From Thomasclavelia saccharogumia DSM 17460 (GTDB taxonomy: Bacteria > Bacillota_I > Bacilli_A > Erysipelotrichales > Coprobacillaceae): a stretch of 32,307 bases of DNA. Position 1 is the first letter of the stretch, and the number at the start of each line of letters is the position of its first letter. Location of the stretch: contig NZ_KK365998.1 of assembly GCF_000686665.1 (NCBI RefSeq), positions 1-32,307 on the forward strand, read 5' to 3'. This document shows positions 19,231-25,872 of this stretch, piece by piece. Under the pieces are notes generated by a model. It was not told where the DNA came from and searched no databases. It was given only the letters and a program-made list of their open reading frames with translations. Both the position numbers and the translations under genes were made by a program.

Positions 19231-22056
19231 TCAAGTTTTGCTTGTAAGATAGCTAAATAATGCATCTTTGATCGGAGTTTCTAATTTATATGTAAACTGG
19301 ATGGCCGAATTTTTATTGTCAGGGAGTTTTACATTGATAGGTCTATCTATCGCGTGTAATCGTCCCATATAATAAAATTCTTTGGAAGTAGTATCATTTT
19401 TGTTCTTTCTTACAAATAAATGTATTTGAATATGGTTATTATCTTCATCATAAATTCTTTGGATTTCATCAGAATCTATGCTTCGATTTGGTTTAGAAAA
19501 ACAAATCAGGGTGCTGTTATCAATAAATCGATGTAAATATTTACCACCATGAATGGCATCATGATCATGATTGATGAAAACTGGCATCGTGTTAGTTCGC
19601 TGATCATATTTGTAGCCGCCAATATTAAGAGGTACAGCATTTACTTCCCAGTTTAATAAACGACAGACATCTTCATAAGTGTATTTTTGATATAGGCATA
19701 AATCAGTATTTTTATATCGATCATTGTAATATCGTTGATAACGGCTGATACCAAAATCAATTACTTCAAGCAATTGATTTTTAAAATCTTTGTCTTTTAA
19801 TAAATTTTTTAATTGCGGATGAACATTTAAATCATCATCAATAAAAATTGCGTCTTGAAAAGTAGCTTTAGCTCCACCGGTTGCAAATTCTTGTTTTAAC
19901 TGGTTGATAATAGGCAGATAATTTACTTCTTTAAATTCAATATTATAATCATGGCACAGCTGTTTTTTTAATAGTGTGATGATATTGTTTTTATTTTCGA
20001 TACAGAGCTTAACAGCTAATAGTTCATGAATTCGTTTACCAGCTGCTAGTTTGTTGGAAATATATTCAAGATATTTTTCTTGCAGTCTTGTAAATTTGAT
20101 CGGATATTCTTTTTCGTATTTACTTAGAAATTTATGATAGGATCCAAGACTTTTGTTTTGAAAGATTCTTAAGGGGTCGATTGAATCATATTTATCAAAA
20201 TCTGATAAATTAGGAATTCTTCCTAATTTATCCTTTAACTGCTGATAACTGTCTTTGATTATTTTTAGATCATTAAATTTAGCTTGATCGATAGCTTCAT
20301 AAATTTTCTTTTTAGAAATTAAATCAAAGTCAATCGTTGAAGCCCCAGGCAATAATAAACTACCTTCACTTACAAATCTCCTTAGACTATCTTTGTCATA
20401 AGTATAATTGCCGCTTAAAGCAATCGGAATCAAAAAATTCTTTTCATAATTACCAATAAAATCAATAACGACAACATAATCTTTAGAAGCATTTTTACGT
20501 AAGCCGCGGCCTAGCTGCTGGACAAAGATAATTGCTGATTGGGTAGGACGTAACATGATGATTTGGTTTATTTTAGGAATATCGATTCCTTCATTAAAGA
20601 TATCGACTGTAAAGATATAATCTAAATTATCATTTTCTAATTTATCAATGGCATTTTGGCGCTTTATTTCACTATCATCACTAGTTAAAGCAACTGTATG
20701 ATAGCCTTTTTGATTAAATAAATTCGATAACTCTATTGCTTCATCTTTACGACTACAAAAAATCAAGCCACGTGCTTTATTTCCAGAATAGCCATATAAT
20801 TCAATTTTATCAATGATATGGTTGACCCGAACTTCAGTAACGAGATTATTAAATGATGTTTTATCATCGATACTTATCCCATCAACATTAATATCAGATA
20901 TTCCATAATAATGAAAAGGACACAATAAATCATATTCCATTGCCTGCTGTAAACGAATTTCATATGCGATATTATAATCAAACATTTTATAAATATCAAA
21001 ATGATCAGATCTTTCCGGTGTAGCTGACATTCCTAATAAAAATTGCGGTTTAAAATAATCGATCAATTCTTGATATGAAGCAGCACCAGCTCGATGAACT
21101 TCATCGATAATAATATAATCGAATGTATCCGGTTTAAATAACTCGCGATATTTTTGCTTATGAATAGTTTGGATCGTTGCAAAGATATAATCGCTGTTTA
21201 TATCTTTATCATTACCAGTAAAAAGGCCAAAAGTATGATTTTTAATAATATTTTTATATGTGTTCATGGCCTCATGAACAATGTTTTCACGGTGAACGAC
21301 AAAAAGCATTCTTTTAGGATCGGCATTTTTTATGGCAAAGGCACTTAAATAAGTTTTGCCTGTACCGGTTGCGGAAATCAGCAATGCTTTATCTTTCTTT
21401 TGGTTTCTTAAAGCGGTTAATGATGCAAGAGCTTCTTGTTGCATTAAATTAGGCTGGATGTTTTGGTGTTTATCATTAACAGGAGTTGATTTAGGAATAT
21501 ATGTTTTTTCATATTCTTCTATCCATTCTTTAGTTAAAGGAACAGAATGTTGCCACTGCAATTTAAATTCATTATTTATTTCTTCAACAAAATCGTTATC
21601 ATTATTAGCATCGATCATAATATTCCATTCTTGATTTGTAGCTAATGCTGACTGAGTTAAGTTGGAACTACCAATAATGATTTTATAATTGTTATTATTT
21701 TTAAAGATATAGCCTTTAGGGTGAAAGCCAATTTGTTCATCTTCATAAATGCGAACTTCAATATTATCAAATATTAGTAATTCTTTAAATACATTAGGAT
21801 GATTAAAACCTAAATATGTTGAGGTAATGATTTTACCTCTAATTCCTTTATCTTTTAAATCTATTAAGGTTTGTTTTAAGACGGCTAATCCTGATTTGTT
21901 GATAAAAGCGACAGAAAAGTAAAATGCCTCACATGCATTTAATTGAGTTATTAATTTGTGTGATATTTTGATACCTTGTTTGTAGTTGTTGGTTAATAGT
22001 TTAGCATTATCTTTATTAGTAATTACATTTTGTGATAGTAATGATATATTATTCAT
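19231..22056 (-). CDS. PLD-nuclease / superfamily 2 helicase / DUF3427-type protein
   Basis: A 941-residue multi-domain protein. Residues about 1-190 form a phospholipase-D-like nuclease half, with HPK at 112-114 in FHPKGYIF and then IIIGSSNLTQSA, the HxK...GSxN active-site pattern. Residues about 200-570 are a superfamily 2 helicase: ATGTGKT at 229-235 (Walker A), DEVH at 318-321 (motif II), GMSATPERSD (motif III) and QQLGRGLRK (motif VI). The C-terminus has the DUF3427-type NIGGYKYDQRTNTMPVFINH. AGGAG sits seven bases before the chosen ATG at 22056; a longer in-frame start at 22101 lacks one. Such proteins occur among defence genes; here it diverges from a restriction-modification group. 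A defence role is inference. Confidence 0.92.
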   Translation of the reverse strand: MNNISLLSQNVITNKDNAKLLTNNYKQGIKISHKLITQLNACEAFYFSVAFINKSGLAVLKQTLIDLKDKGIRGKIITSTYLGFNHPNVFKELLIFDNIEVRIYEDEQIGFHPKGYIFKNNNNYKIIIGSSNLTQSALATNQEWNIMIDANNDNDFVEEINNEFKLQWQHSVPLTKEWIEEYEKTYIPKSTPVNDKHQNIQPNLMQQEALASLTALRNQKKDKALLISATGTGKTYLSAFAIKNADPKRMLFVVHRENIVHEAMNTYKNIIKNHTFGLFTGNDKDINSDYIFATIQTIHKQKYRELFKPDTFDYIIIDEVHRAGAASYQELIDYFKPQFLLGMSATPERSDHFDIYKMFDYNIAYEIRLQQAMEYDLLCPFHYYGISDINVDGISIDDKTSFNNLVTEVRVNHIIDKIELYGYSGNKARGLIFCSRKDEAIELSNLFNQKGYHTVALTSDDSEIKRQNAIDKLENDNLDYIFTVDIFNEGIDIPKINQIIMLRPTQSAIIFVQQLGRGLRKNASKDYVVVIDFIGNYEKNFLIPIALSGNYTYDKDSLRRFVSEGSLLLPGASTIDFDLISKKKIYEAIDQAKFNDLKIIKDSYQQLKDKLGRIPNLSDFDKYDSIDPLRIFQNKSLGSYHKFLSKYEKEYPIKFTRLQEKYLEYISNKLAAGKRIHELLAVKLCIENKNNIITLLKKQLCHDYNIEFKEVNYLPIINQLKQEFATGGAKATFQDAIFIDDDLNVHPQLKNLLKDKDFKNQLLEVIDFGISRYQRYYNDRYKNTDLCLYQKYTYEDVCRLLNWEVNAVPLNIGGYKYDQRTNTMPVFINHDHDAIHGGKYLHRFIDNSTLICFSKPNRSIDSDEIQRIYDEDNNHIQIHLFVRKNKNDTTSKEFYYMGRLHAIDRPINVKLPDNKNSAIQFTYKLETPIKDALFSYLTSKT

Positions 22057-22159
22057 GATATAACTCCTCGTAATCATTAGTATAAAGTATTTTATTGTCA
22101 ATAACTAGTGATTTGTTTTATTTAATGATAAAATAAAATTAAGATGGGAAGTGATTATA

Positions 22160-22573
22160 ATGGCTGATTGTATGACTAAGGAACAACGCTCTAGAAATAT
22201 GTCACATATTAAAAGTAAAGATACTTCAATAGAGTTGAAAGTAAGAAAATATTTATATCATCATGGCTTTAGATATAGAAAGAATGTTAAAACATTACCT
22301 GGTAAACCAGATATTGTTATTTCAAAATATAGGGTAGTAATATTTATTAATGGCTGTTTTTGGCATCACCATTATAATTGTAAATATGCAACATTACCAA
22401 AGACAAGACAGAATTATTGGATAAAAAAAATTAATGGAAACGTTGAAAATGATTTAAAACATTATAAAGAACTTGAACAATTAGATTATAGAGTTATTGT
22501 TGTATGGGAATGTGAATTAAAAGATTGCTTTGAATATAGGATGGAGCAATTAATCGAAGAAATTTCTTACTAG
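22160..22573 (+). CDS. vsr: Very short patch repair endonuclease Vsr
   Basis: A 137-residue nuclease that nicks DNA 5' of T in T:G mismatches arising from deaminated 5-methylcytosine. Starting at ATG 22160, the catalytic positions fall on the E. coli Vsr numbers: E25 (SIELKVR), D51 (GKPDIVI) and H69 (FWHHH). E. coli H64 is Asn here (FINGCFW). The CFWHHHYNC zinc-binding region and the closing VVWECELKD are intact. GGGAAGTG lies just upstream. It is the first gene of the cluster that includes a C5-methyltransferase, the enzyme whose product makes Vsr useful. A longer GTG start at 22151 is in frame but unlikely. Confidence 0.95.
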   Translation: MADCMTKEQRSRNMSHIKSKDTSIELKVRKYLYHHGFRYRKNVKTLPGKPDIVISKYRVVIFINGCFWHHHYNCKYATLPKTRQNYWIKKINGNVENDLKHYKELEQLDYRVIVVWECELKDCFEYRMEQLIEEISY

Positions 22574-22590: not shown

Positions 22591-22619
22591 TTGATAAAAA
22601 TATTTATAAATGCTATAAT
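22591..22619 (+). promoter_or_regulatory. Strong promoter of the restriction-endonuclease-like gene
   Basis: TTGATA (22591-22596), a 17-base spacer and TGCTATAAT (-10 at 22614-22619 with the extended TGn). It lies between vsr and the nuclease-like gene, so that gene has its own start site near 22626, followed by GGAGG before ATG 22668. Confidence 0.8.
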
Positions 22620-22667: not shown

Positions 22668-24298
22668 ATGTGGGAAGTTTTACCGATTAAAGATAAACAG
22701 GAATATCGACGGTTAATTTTAGCTTTTGCTAGTTTAACAAGTATGTTTACACAAAAATCAGAAAATGATGTAATACCTTCTCCAATTGTAAATTCTAAAT
22801 TTCAAGAAACAGTGTTTCAAAAGGTTTTTCACGCTTTGGGAGAAGATATTGGAAATACATCGTATGATGCTTCGCTTCGCTTCGCTTGGAAAATGATGAT
22901 GGAACAGAGACAAAATTTATGATAGGAATTAAAACATTTGGTATTGCTTCAGGTGATCAAAAAATTGCCCAATTTAAAACAAATCATGGCGAATGGTCAA
23001 AACTTGTGGATGAGATGGAAAGAAATGCATATGATAATAACAATAAATTAAGAAAAAAAGAAGAAATTGATAAATTAAATCATGATTTATATTTAACTTT
23101 AGCTAGAAAAGTAGCAATTATTCGTAATCAAAGAATAGATTCATCAAAAGAAAATCTTAGAGGATTTGATATTAGCAAATATGATAATATATATAGTGTG
23201 TATCATGTTTTAATGCCATCAAAAAAAGGGGAGTTACCTAAAATTTATGTGGGCGAAACGTCTTATAATAAAATAGATTTAACAAATATAAAAATCCAAG
23301 GATGTACATCAGCCAAAAATCCTTCAAACTTTATATTTGAAGATGGACTTCATATATATAAGTATACATCAGCTGATAGTCAGCTGCTTATGAAATTTAA
23401 CAATCAAGAAATAGTTATGGAAGATTGGGATGTTATTTATGCAGATAATGCGTATGAAATTTTTTCCGATATATCTAAAAAAATCTATGGTGATTCTGAT
23501 AAAAGGGATTTGATTGATGGAATAAGAATAGAAAATAAAATAGTTGAATCTTATTCATGGTCATTGTTAAATGACAAGGGAGAAATAGAGTTATTTTCAG
23601 GATTTAATAATTTCTTTGGTGTTGGATCTAAACTTGCCAAAGATACACGGAAGAGTCATATTGACAAAATCTGTGATAGATATAAAGAAGAAATTGATTT
23701 AAAAAAAAATAATTTGAAAGATTTGTTATATGATTTTTTAATGAAATCCGCTCCAACTTTTAATGAGAAAATGGAAAAAGTAGATTTAAGAGAAAAAATT
23801 AAAAAAATTGCTATAGAAATGGAAAATGAAAATCTATTGAAAGACATTAATAAATTGATATATCGACCTATGGATGAAATGTATATTCCAATTCCTAATT
23901 CAAAAAAATTTCATAATGAACATCCTGATTTCTTTGGGGAAAGAATTGGAACATTTGAAATAGATAAAATAACAGGAAAAGAAACTTCGAAGTTAGCTCT
24001 ACCGCGTGAAGAAAGAAAATTTAATCTGATTTTTGAACCTTCAGGTGATTCTATTATGTCGTATATTACACAAGATAATGGTAAAGCTATTCAATCATTC
24101 GAAAAGCAATCATATTTAGGAAAATGGATTTTGAAAAAGGTTTTTCAACTTAAAGAATATGAACCATTAACTAGTCAGAAACTAGAAGAGATAGGAATTA
24201 ATGGTATTCGATTATATAAAATGGAGAATTCGGATGATATACATTTACAGTTTATTTGGATTGACGCTGATCACTTACCAAAAGATATAATTAAATAA
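22668..24298 (+). pseudogene. Type II restriction-endonuclease-like gene, split by a pentanucleotide-repeat frameshift
   Basis: Two overlapping frames make one gene. The first (22668-22922, 84 residues) reads SYDASLRFAW and ends in TGA. The second carries on with ENDDGTETKF, then GIKTFGIASGDQKIAQFK, a long middle, and FQLKEYEPLTSQKLEEIGIN before the C-terminus LQFIWIDADHL at 24298. The split falls in a GCTTC repeat at 22869-22887, between the aspartate of YDAS and the GIK lysine, which together resemble a PD-(D/E)xK active site. Removing one 5-bp unit would give a single frame of about 541 residues. The two frames also overlap as ATGA (ATG 22919, TGA 22920), so reinitiation could make a separate C-terminal piece. 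Restriction function is inferred from vsr and the methyltransferase. The enzyme family and target site are not known. Confidence 0.8.
22869..22887. repeat. Pentanucleotide tandem repeat (GCTTC), 3.8 copies
   Basis: Three full GCTTC units plus GCTT, inside the nuclease-like coding region exactly where the reading frame breaks. With n full units the downstream frame opens when n is 2, 5 or 8; here n is 3. A 5-bp unit changes frame at every gain or loss, the hallmark of slipped-strand phase switching. The tract is short, so a fixed mutation or a sequencing error remains possible. Confidence 0.85.
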
Positions 24299-24451: not shown

Positions 24452-24497
24452 AAGTGTATAAAATTAAACTATTTTAGTTTAATTTTATACACTTTTT
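24452..24497 (+). terminator. Long terminator before the wHTH-methyltransferase operon
   Basis: A 19-bp perfect stem pairs 24452-24470 (AAGTGTATAAAATTAAACT) with 24476-24494, closing a 5-base loop and followed by TTT. It ends the vsr/nuclease-side transcript and insulates the promoter that starts two bases later. Confidence 0.85.
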
Positions 24498-24527: not shown

Positions 24528-24614
24528 ATAATACGGTGAGATGTTTATATACACAATAAGTATATTTGTAATATGTCTTTTTGCAATAATTTATAATATA
24601 GTTGGGTGATGGAT

Positions 24615-24905
24615 ATGAAATTGCGAGAACTTGGTAATGATGTATATAAGGTTTTGGAATATATGGAATGTGTGGAAGTTGTTCATGGTGATGAAAAGAT
24701 TATTATTCACACACAACAAGAAATTGCAGATAATTTGAAGATAAGTAAGTTAAAAGTAAATAAAATAATTAGTCAATTGTTTTATTTAGGATTATTACGA
24801 CGTTATACTCAAAAAGGTAAATATCAAATTACTGAAGCAGGTTATGAAGTTTTGAGAGTGATGAATACGAACATTAAAACTGGAGGGATATATAATGACA
24901 CTTAA
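24615..24905 (+). CDS. Winged-helix regulator overlapping the methyltransferase gene
   Basis: About 96 residues. The middle is a helix-turn-helix with a wing: HTQQEIADNLKISKLKVNKI as helices 2-3, then LFYLGLLRRYTQKGKYQITE as the wing, followed by a C-terminal helix. This fits the small MarR/IclR/RepL-like winged-helix group. GGGTGATGG lies directly before ATG 24615; in-frame starts at 24606 and 24609 overlap that site. Its stop lies 11 bases inside the methyltransferase gene, so the two are translationally coupled. It probably controls expression of the restriction-modification genes, by analogy with controller proteins; this is inference. Confidence 0.8.
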   Translation: MKLRELGNDVYKVLEYMECVEVVHGDEKIIIHTQQEIADNLKISKLKVNKIISQLFYLGLLRRYTQKGKYQITEAGYEVLRVMNTNIKTGGIYNDT

Positions 24906-25872
24906 TTGTGCTTCTCTTTTTGCTGGAGTTGGTGGAATAGATTTAGGATTTAAAAATGCCGGATTTAAAATAGTGTATGCTAATGAGATAGATTCTAAAG
25001 CAGTCAAAACGTATGAACTAAATTTTAAAGATTTAAAAGTAGATAATAGAGATATTCATGAAGTAGTAAAAGATATCGAACTTGGAATTGATCCGTTTAA
25101 TGGTAAAAAAATAAATGTTGTATTGGCAGGATTCCCTTGTCAGGCATTTAGTATAGCGGGTTATCAAGAAGGTTTTGAAGATAAAAAAGGTCGAGGCGGT
25201 TTATTTTTTGAAATAATGAAAATAGTAGAATTTGCTAAACCTGAATTTATTTTTTTAGAAAATGTAAAAAATCTAATGGGACATGATAAAGGAAAGACAT
25301 ACAAAATAATAAAAGGTGCTTTAGAAGCAAAAGATTATTATGTTGACGAAAGAATCTTTAATTCTATGGAATATGGAAATGTACCACAAAATAGAGAAAG
25401 AATTTATATTGTAGCTTTTAAAAATGAAAATAGTCTAAAAAAATTTAAATGGCCTGATCCAATTAAATTAGATAAAACACTTGATAAAATTTTAGATTAC
25501 AATACAAAATTAGATGATGCATATTATTATACTAAAGAGCGTTTTAAAAGATTTAGTGAAATTGAGCCGTATATAAAAAAAAGGGATACGGTTTATCAAT
25601 GGCGAAGAGTTTATGTTAGAGAGAATAAAAACAATGTATGTCCAACTCTTACAGCCAATATGGGGACTGGTGGACACAATGTACCACTTATTTTAACTGA
25701 TTATGGAATAAGAAAATTAACACCTCGTGAATGTTTTGATTTGCAGGGATTCCCATCTAATTATAAATTGCCGGAAAAATTAGCTAACAGTTATTTATAT
25801 AAACAAGCGGGAAATTCAGTTTCCGTTTCAGTAATTCAAAGAATTGCTGAAGCGGTATTTAAAGTACTTTGA
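24895..25872 (+). CDS. DNA (cytosine-5) methyltransferase
   Basis: A 325-residue methyltransferase that puts a methyl group on C5 of cytosine in a specific site. Motifs in order: I LFAGVGGIDLGFKNAG (residues 8-23), IV GFPCQAFS with catalytic C82, VI ENV at 122-124, VIII QNRERIYIV, and IX/X in LTPRECFDLQGFP and YKQAGNSVSVSVIQRI. The target-recognition region between VIII and IX is short. With Vsr nearby the site is probably one where deamination makes a T:G mismatch, such as a CCWGG-like site, but the sequence is not readable from the gene. GGAGGG precedes the ATG. All catalytic motifs are intact, so the methylase should be active. Confidence 0.96.
   Translation: MTLNCASLFAGVGGIDLGFKNAGFKIVYANEIDSKAVKTYELNFKDLKVDNRDIHEVVKDIELGIDPFNGKKINVVLAGFPCQAFSIAGYQEGFEDKKGRGGLFFEIMKIVEFAKPEFIFLENVKNLMGHDKGKTYKIIKGALEAKDYYVDERIFNSMEYGNVPQNRERIYIVAFKNENSLKKFKWPDPIKLDKTLDKILDYNTKLDDAYYYTKERFKRFSEIEPYIKKRDTVYQWRRVYVRENKNNVCPTLTANMGTGGHNVPLILTDYGIRKLTPRECFDLQGFPSNYKLPEKLANSYLYKQAGNSVSVSVIQRIAEAVFKVL

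Follow-up and report, generated by a model that had tools for sequence, protein, structure and literature searches.

By its sequence, the restriction nuclease of a Type II restriction-modification (R-M) system in Thomasclavelia saccharogumia DSM 17460 is switched off in the sequenced genome by the wrong number of units in a GCTTC pentanucleotide tract. The best explanation, which we hold with about as much confidence as doubt, is that this tract has slipped and is most likely a reversible ON/OFF switch of restriction. The analysis concerns a stretch of 32,307 nucleotides (the window), the relevant features of which are collected in Table 1.

Table 1 Features of the restriction-modification locus and its surroundings (positions in the window)
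Feature	Position	Strand	Evidence or remark
956-aa PLD + helicase protein	19231-22101	-	PADLOC mREase_IV PDLC03658, E 3.4e-223
Vsr mismatch endonuclease, adjoins R-M genes	22160-22573	+	
Extended -10 promoter-like site TTGATA-17-TATAAT, ahead of nuclease gene	22591-22619	+	11/12; consensus match only
Nuclease gene, split between two frames	22668-24298	+	
5' part of nuclease gene	22668-22922	+	84-aa truncated ORF in 3-unit state, with likely catalytic Asp (YDAS)
GCTTC tract, 3 full units + GCTT, perfect	22869-22887	+	TRF: 3.8 copies, 100% match
3' part of nuclease gene, other frame	22886-24298	+	470 open codons, GIK Lys
ATGA, stop of truncated ORF overlapping in-frame ATG of 3' part	22919-22922	+	
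Long, terminator-like hairpin between nuclease gene and methyltransferase unit	24452-24494	+	Consensus match only
Small winged-helix protein, overlaps methyltransferase gene start	24606-24905	+	
DNA cytosine-C5 methyltransferase, intact	24895-25872	+	325 aa

The tract lies at the point where the two halves of the nuclease gene overlap, and its unit count sets the frame. When the frame was rebuilt in silico for zero to eight units, two, five and eight units gave products of 541, 546 and 551 aa, all other counts within this range gave 72-89 aa, and the present three units gave 84 aa with a stop at the TGA at 22920-22922. An earlier note on this DNA had closed the three-unit frame at the same TGA, which the translation bears out; its figure of about 541 codons for two or five units is right for two, with five giving 546. 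The locus is thus a tandem repeat in a coding frame, with a unit that is not a multiple of three and a unit number that decides between a full-length and a truncated product. Variation of that number among cells or strains, a further feature of phase variation, is represented in our data by one strain and one sequence.

Which frames belong together can be read from two homologous loci, L003 and L004, with intact nucleases (542 and 537 aa) that are each followed, in the same order, by a methyltransferase of the same C5 family. Residues 1-72 of the L004 protein match window positions 22668-22880 and residues 76-115 match 22910-23029, and since the match is split between 22880 and 22910, the break in homology coincides with the tract. 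The repeat finder and the homologues thus agree with the earlier note in placing the GCTTC repeat exactly at the frame break. Full-length homologues number six, namely these two and the more distant L018 (473 aa), L052 (366 aa), L053 (379 aa) and L019, the last being full-length only under code 4, and a scan of genome contigs gave three more distant loci. No nuclease homologue was found in eight genomes of the same genus, plasmids and phages gave no match beyond the C-terminal domain, and the viral contigs yielded neither a nuclease homologue nor the tract junction pattern.

That the broken gene encodes a restriction nuclease, as had been proposed, is supported by the match of the full-length homologues to the PADLOC REase_II models PDLC03446 and PDLC03479, by the C-terminal B3-like DNA-binding domain in the 3' part (Pfam RE_NgoFVII_C match) and by the C5 methyltransferase gene downstream. 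Sequence family and C-terminal domain are those of these models. Enzymes of the NgoFVII/NgoAVII type have a PLD-type nuclease domain ahead of a similar C-terminal domain, whereas the N-terminal domain of the window nuclease is likely of the PD-(D/E)xK type; a profile search against solved structures gave no match. Glu48, Asp68 and Lys83 (L004 numbering) are invariant in five aligned sequences (L003, L004, L018, L019 and the window), and the frame break does fall between two of these, the Asp of YDAS and the Lys of GIK. The suggested PD-(D/E)xK site is likely, but in a non-canonical form, with Gly two positions before the Lys and the invariant Glu48 upstream. The predicted structure of the L004 protein, a poor model with a mean pLDDT of 44.8, has strands at residues 65-73 and 76-85 with helices on either side, and on this ground the tract may, at low confidence, be placed in the hairpin between the Asp68 strand and the Lys83 strand of the nuclease core. 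As the repeat would code for a hairpin loop, several ON alleles of different length might be tolerated. The distance from Asp to Lys is 15 residues in L003, L004 and L018 and 11 in L019, L052 and L053; it would be 20 in the two-unit form of the window nuclease, a loop longer than that of any homologue. The repeat is absent from the hairpin of the other homologues, and the tract is not conserved as would be expected of a long-standing switch. Its first unit forms Ala-Ser codons (GCTTCG), which are present once in the homologue of genome G046, where the single GCTTCG is a possible seed of the repeat.

How unusual the tract is was judged from a repeat survey that covered, in stretches, 1,240,525 bases (39%) of the 3.14 Mb genome. 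It exceeds in length every other perfect repeat of period 4-10 bp within these bases, and of the three perfect period-5 tracts of at least three units the other two are AT-rich and 15 bp long. For tracts of 19 bp or more, an order-3 Markov model puts the expectation at 0.1 per replicate. The sampled 39% showed no further tract of period 4-10 that comes near this one in length, and hence nothing to suggest that the genome has a general repertoire of switches. The 14-mer GCTTCGCTTCGCTT is unique within the 3.14 Mb genome, and the 15-mer GCTTCGCTTCGCTTC was found in none of 147 related genomes. Since so rare a tract sits exactly at the frame break, slippage is its likely cause, a strong inference that we regard as well supported.

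The order of events that we propose would start from a two-unit, in-frame state encoding 541 aa, from which the tract would have gained one unit by strand slippage. The methyltransferase would go on protecting the chromosome, so that the OFF state would be harmless and only restriction would be given up. As the same slippage in reverse could restore the frame, the tract would most likely act as a reversible switch of restriction, of low to moderate frequency. The bottom strand, AAGCGAAGCGAAGCGAAGC, holds three overlapping copies of GCGAAGC, and d(GCGAAGC) forms a DNA mini-hairpin known for its exceptional stability, with melting near 78 C (PMC4686876). Going by these published melting data, the mini-hairpin could promote slippage at few copies; a nearest-neighbour energy model gave no stable fold for the tract DNA and did not reproduce the mini-hairpin.

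The partner gene is intact, as the earlier note had held. Along its entire length the methyltransferase matches PF00145 (E 9.5e-84) and TIGR00675 (E 2.9e-93), its PCQ, ENV and QxRxR motifs are visible, and the locus is a Type II R-M system of nuclease and C5 methyltransferase. A GGAGG ribosome site stands just 5' of the nuclease ATG at 22668. Because the nuclease gene and the methyltransferase unit have separate promoter-like and terminator-like signals, loss of the nuclease frame need not affect methylation, and in the three-unit state the cell would no longer restrict but would keep its protection. The winged-helix gene ahead of the methyltransferase, not seen between the two R-M genes of L003 and L004, encodes a possible regulator of the methyltransferase. 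Past the methyltransferase gene come a gene whose 1320-aa product reads as Cas9 and then what are likely cas1 and cas2, so that the Vsr and R-M genes, the divergent mREase_IV-type gene and the likely type II CRISPR-Cas genes together form a defence island.

The earlier note had called the tract shorter than most known switches, yet going by published cases so few units may be enough. Four GACGA units within the Haemophilus influenzae hsdM gene switch at a high rate, similar to that of tetranucleotide tracts of far greater length (PMC2651432), a review lists three or more GACGA units as hypermutable, at 1e-5 to 1e-2 (PMC4235727), and in lacI the chief hotspot for indels is a run of three CTGG units (PMC3485313). 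With 3.8 units, our tract is inside the range of three or more listed for GACGA and below the cut-off of five units that PhasomeIt applies to pentamers (PMC6321876). A close parallel is the HindI Type I R-M system of H. influenzae, in which a pentanucleotide tract of few units in an R-M gene likewise sets the frame and phage sensitivity changes with the number of (GACGA)n units in hsdM (PMC2651432). HindI, however, switches a Type I methylation subunit, and thereby restriction and methylation together, whereas the window tract would concern a separate Type II nuclease only; moreover, variation among strains has been observed for HindI, while the window locus is known from a single sequence. 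The Type IIG enzyme of Campylobacter jejuni NCTC11168 is a fused methylase-nuclease with a homopolymer tract, in contrast to the window, where a pentamer affects the nuclease alone. Its gene, like that of the window nuclease, belongs to a Type II R-M system, and a repeat drives its phase variation (PMC4889913). The (CTGG)3 tract of lacI, also three tandem units in a coding gene, gives rise to most spontaneous indels and is reversible in principle (PMC3485313), but it is no evolved switch, which shows that mutability of a short tract does not by itself make a phase-variation locus. Set against these cases, the locus plausibly behaves as an R-M gene that varies in phase through a short tract.

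A serious contender, if one we put somewhat below an even chance, is a one-off inactivation, in which the slip killed the nuclease, the methyltransferase stays, decay is beginning, and reversion is possible without playing any role. The homologue in genome G046 (L017, contig C21, about 166095-167700) is evidence that nucleases of this family do get lost: with at least three frame breaks beside an adjoining methyltransferase open over 341 aa, it is, to judge from its reading frames, a natural case of nuclease loss by plain decay with the methylation gene retained. That the window tract has three full units only, that the homologues lack the repeat and that the evidence is one sequence speak for the same course of events. 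What argues against it is that the lesion sits in the most slippage-prone tract of the sampled genome, and that the gene bears neither a second lesion nor excess divergence. No stop occurs in the 470 codons past the tract, although 269 of 4230 single substitutions (6.4%) would make one, which by our own calculation caps neutral change after the frameshift at about 46 substitutions, or about 3% (95%). Identity to relatives is 55-56% for the nuclease tail and 55-60% for the methyltransferase, as against 67-71% and 82-89%, respectively, between pairs of relatives, where the nuclease diverges faster; the similar values here indicate that the nuclease is not unusually fast-evolving in the window. 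On both counts the frameshift looks young. Of the phase-variable switch that the earlier note had proposed, the part that stands is the breaking of the nuclease frame by the unit count, while an inactivating slip, whether fixed or young, accounts for the sequence roughly as well as a switch does. Our preferred reading is that a mutable tract slipped recently, that the change could in principle be undone and that the tract may be a true switch.

An error of sequencing or assembly, such that the true unit number differs and the nuclease is intact, seems improbable to us. The sequence does come from one draft genome in 133 contigs, and the GCGAAGC strand makes unusual hairpins, but any read easily spans a 19-bp tract, and Illumina sequencing is reported to read pentanucleotide repeats with an accuracy close to that for non-repetitive DNA (PMC4235727). 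We give even less credence to the idea that the three-unit state is something other than a plain OFF, translation restarting at the overlapping ATG to yield a 459-aa C-terminal part beside the 84-aa piece. Such a product, made up of the GIK strand and the DNA-binding domain, would be a DNA binder that does not cut, or part of a weak split enzyme. Protein splits in hairpins are often tolerated, the present split may lie in one, and the ATGA is in the right frames; against this, no good ribosome site precedes 22919, and the Met is missing from the intact relatives L003 and L004, which read YLVGIK, so that the ATGA overlap is probably due to chance.

Should the slipped tract be a switch in the full sense, it would be one of the nuclease only, a claim that we advance tentatively and think rather doubtful: the pentamer, with its GCGAAGC strand, would toggle restriction while methylation stays on, and the population would hedge phage defence against DNA uptake while always keeping its self-protection. 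In the published examples that we compared, repeat-driven phase variation of R-M systems mostly hits methyltransferase or specificity genes, with changes in the methylome as the outcome, and switching of the nuclease only has merely been suggested, for HsdR of Mycoplasma agalactiae (PMC9465063). A nuclease-only Type II switch, if true, would uncouple defence against phages from epigenetic regulation and make it possible to test cleanly if selection for switching in R-M genes comes from phage defence as opposed to gene regulation.

Some observations on other loci were made along the way. The L019 homologue (genome G214, contig C3, about 39100-41300) was considered as a second decayed copy and rejected, since its stop is a TGA at a Trp of the relatives and the gene is open under code 4. 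Both its nuclease and its methyltransferase have TGA where relatives have Trp (SGLNQW, YQW), and in this 0.8 Mb genome TGA apparently codes for Trp. At L104:6023-7649 (genome G049), a methyltransferase 58% identical to that of the window comes after an unrelated 188-aa protein without a Pfam match, a possible partner swap, perhaps with a different nuclease family. Finally, the genome of the window, with a GC content of 30%, carries at L086:14470-14513 (contig C5, about 74470-74513) a perfect 11-bp repeat, AGACCACCGAA, in 4.0 copies, which begins seven bases past the stop of a Schlafen/AlbA_2 + RecG-C-like gene (468 aa). Its 11-bp unit would shift a frame, and may cause variation downstream or an alternative C-terminus.
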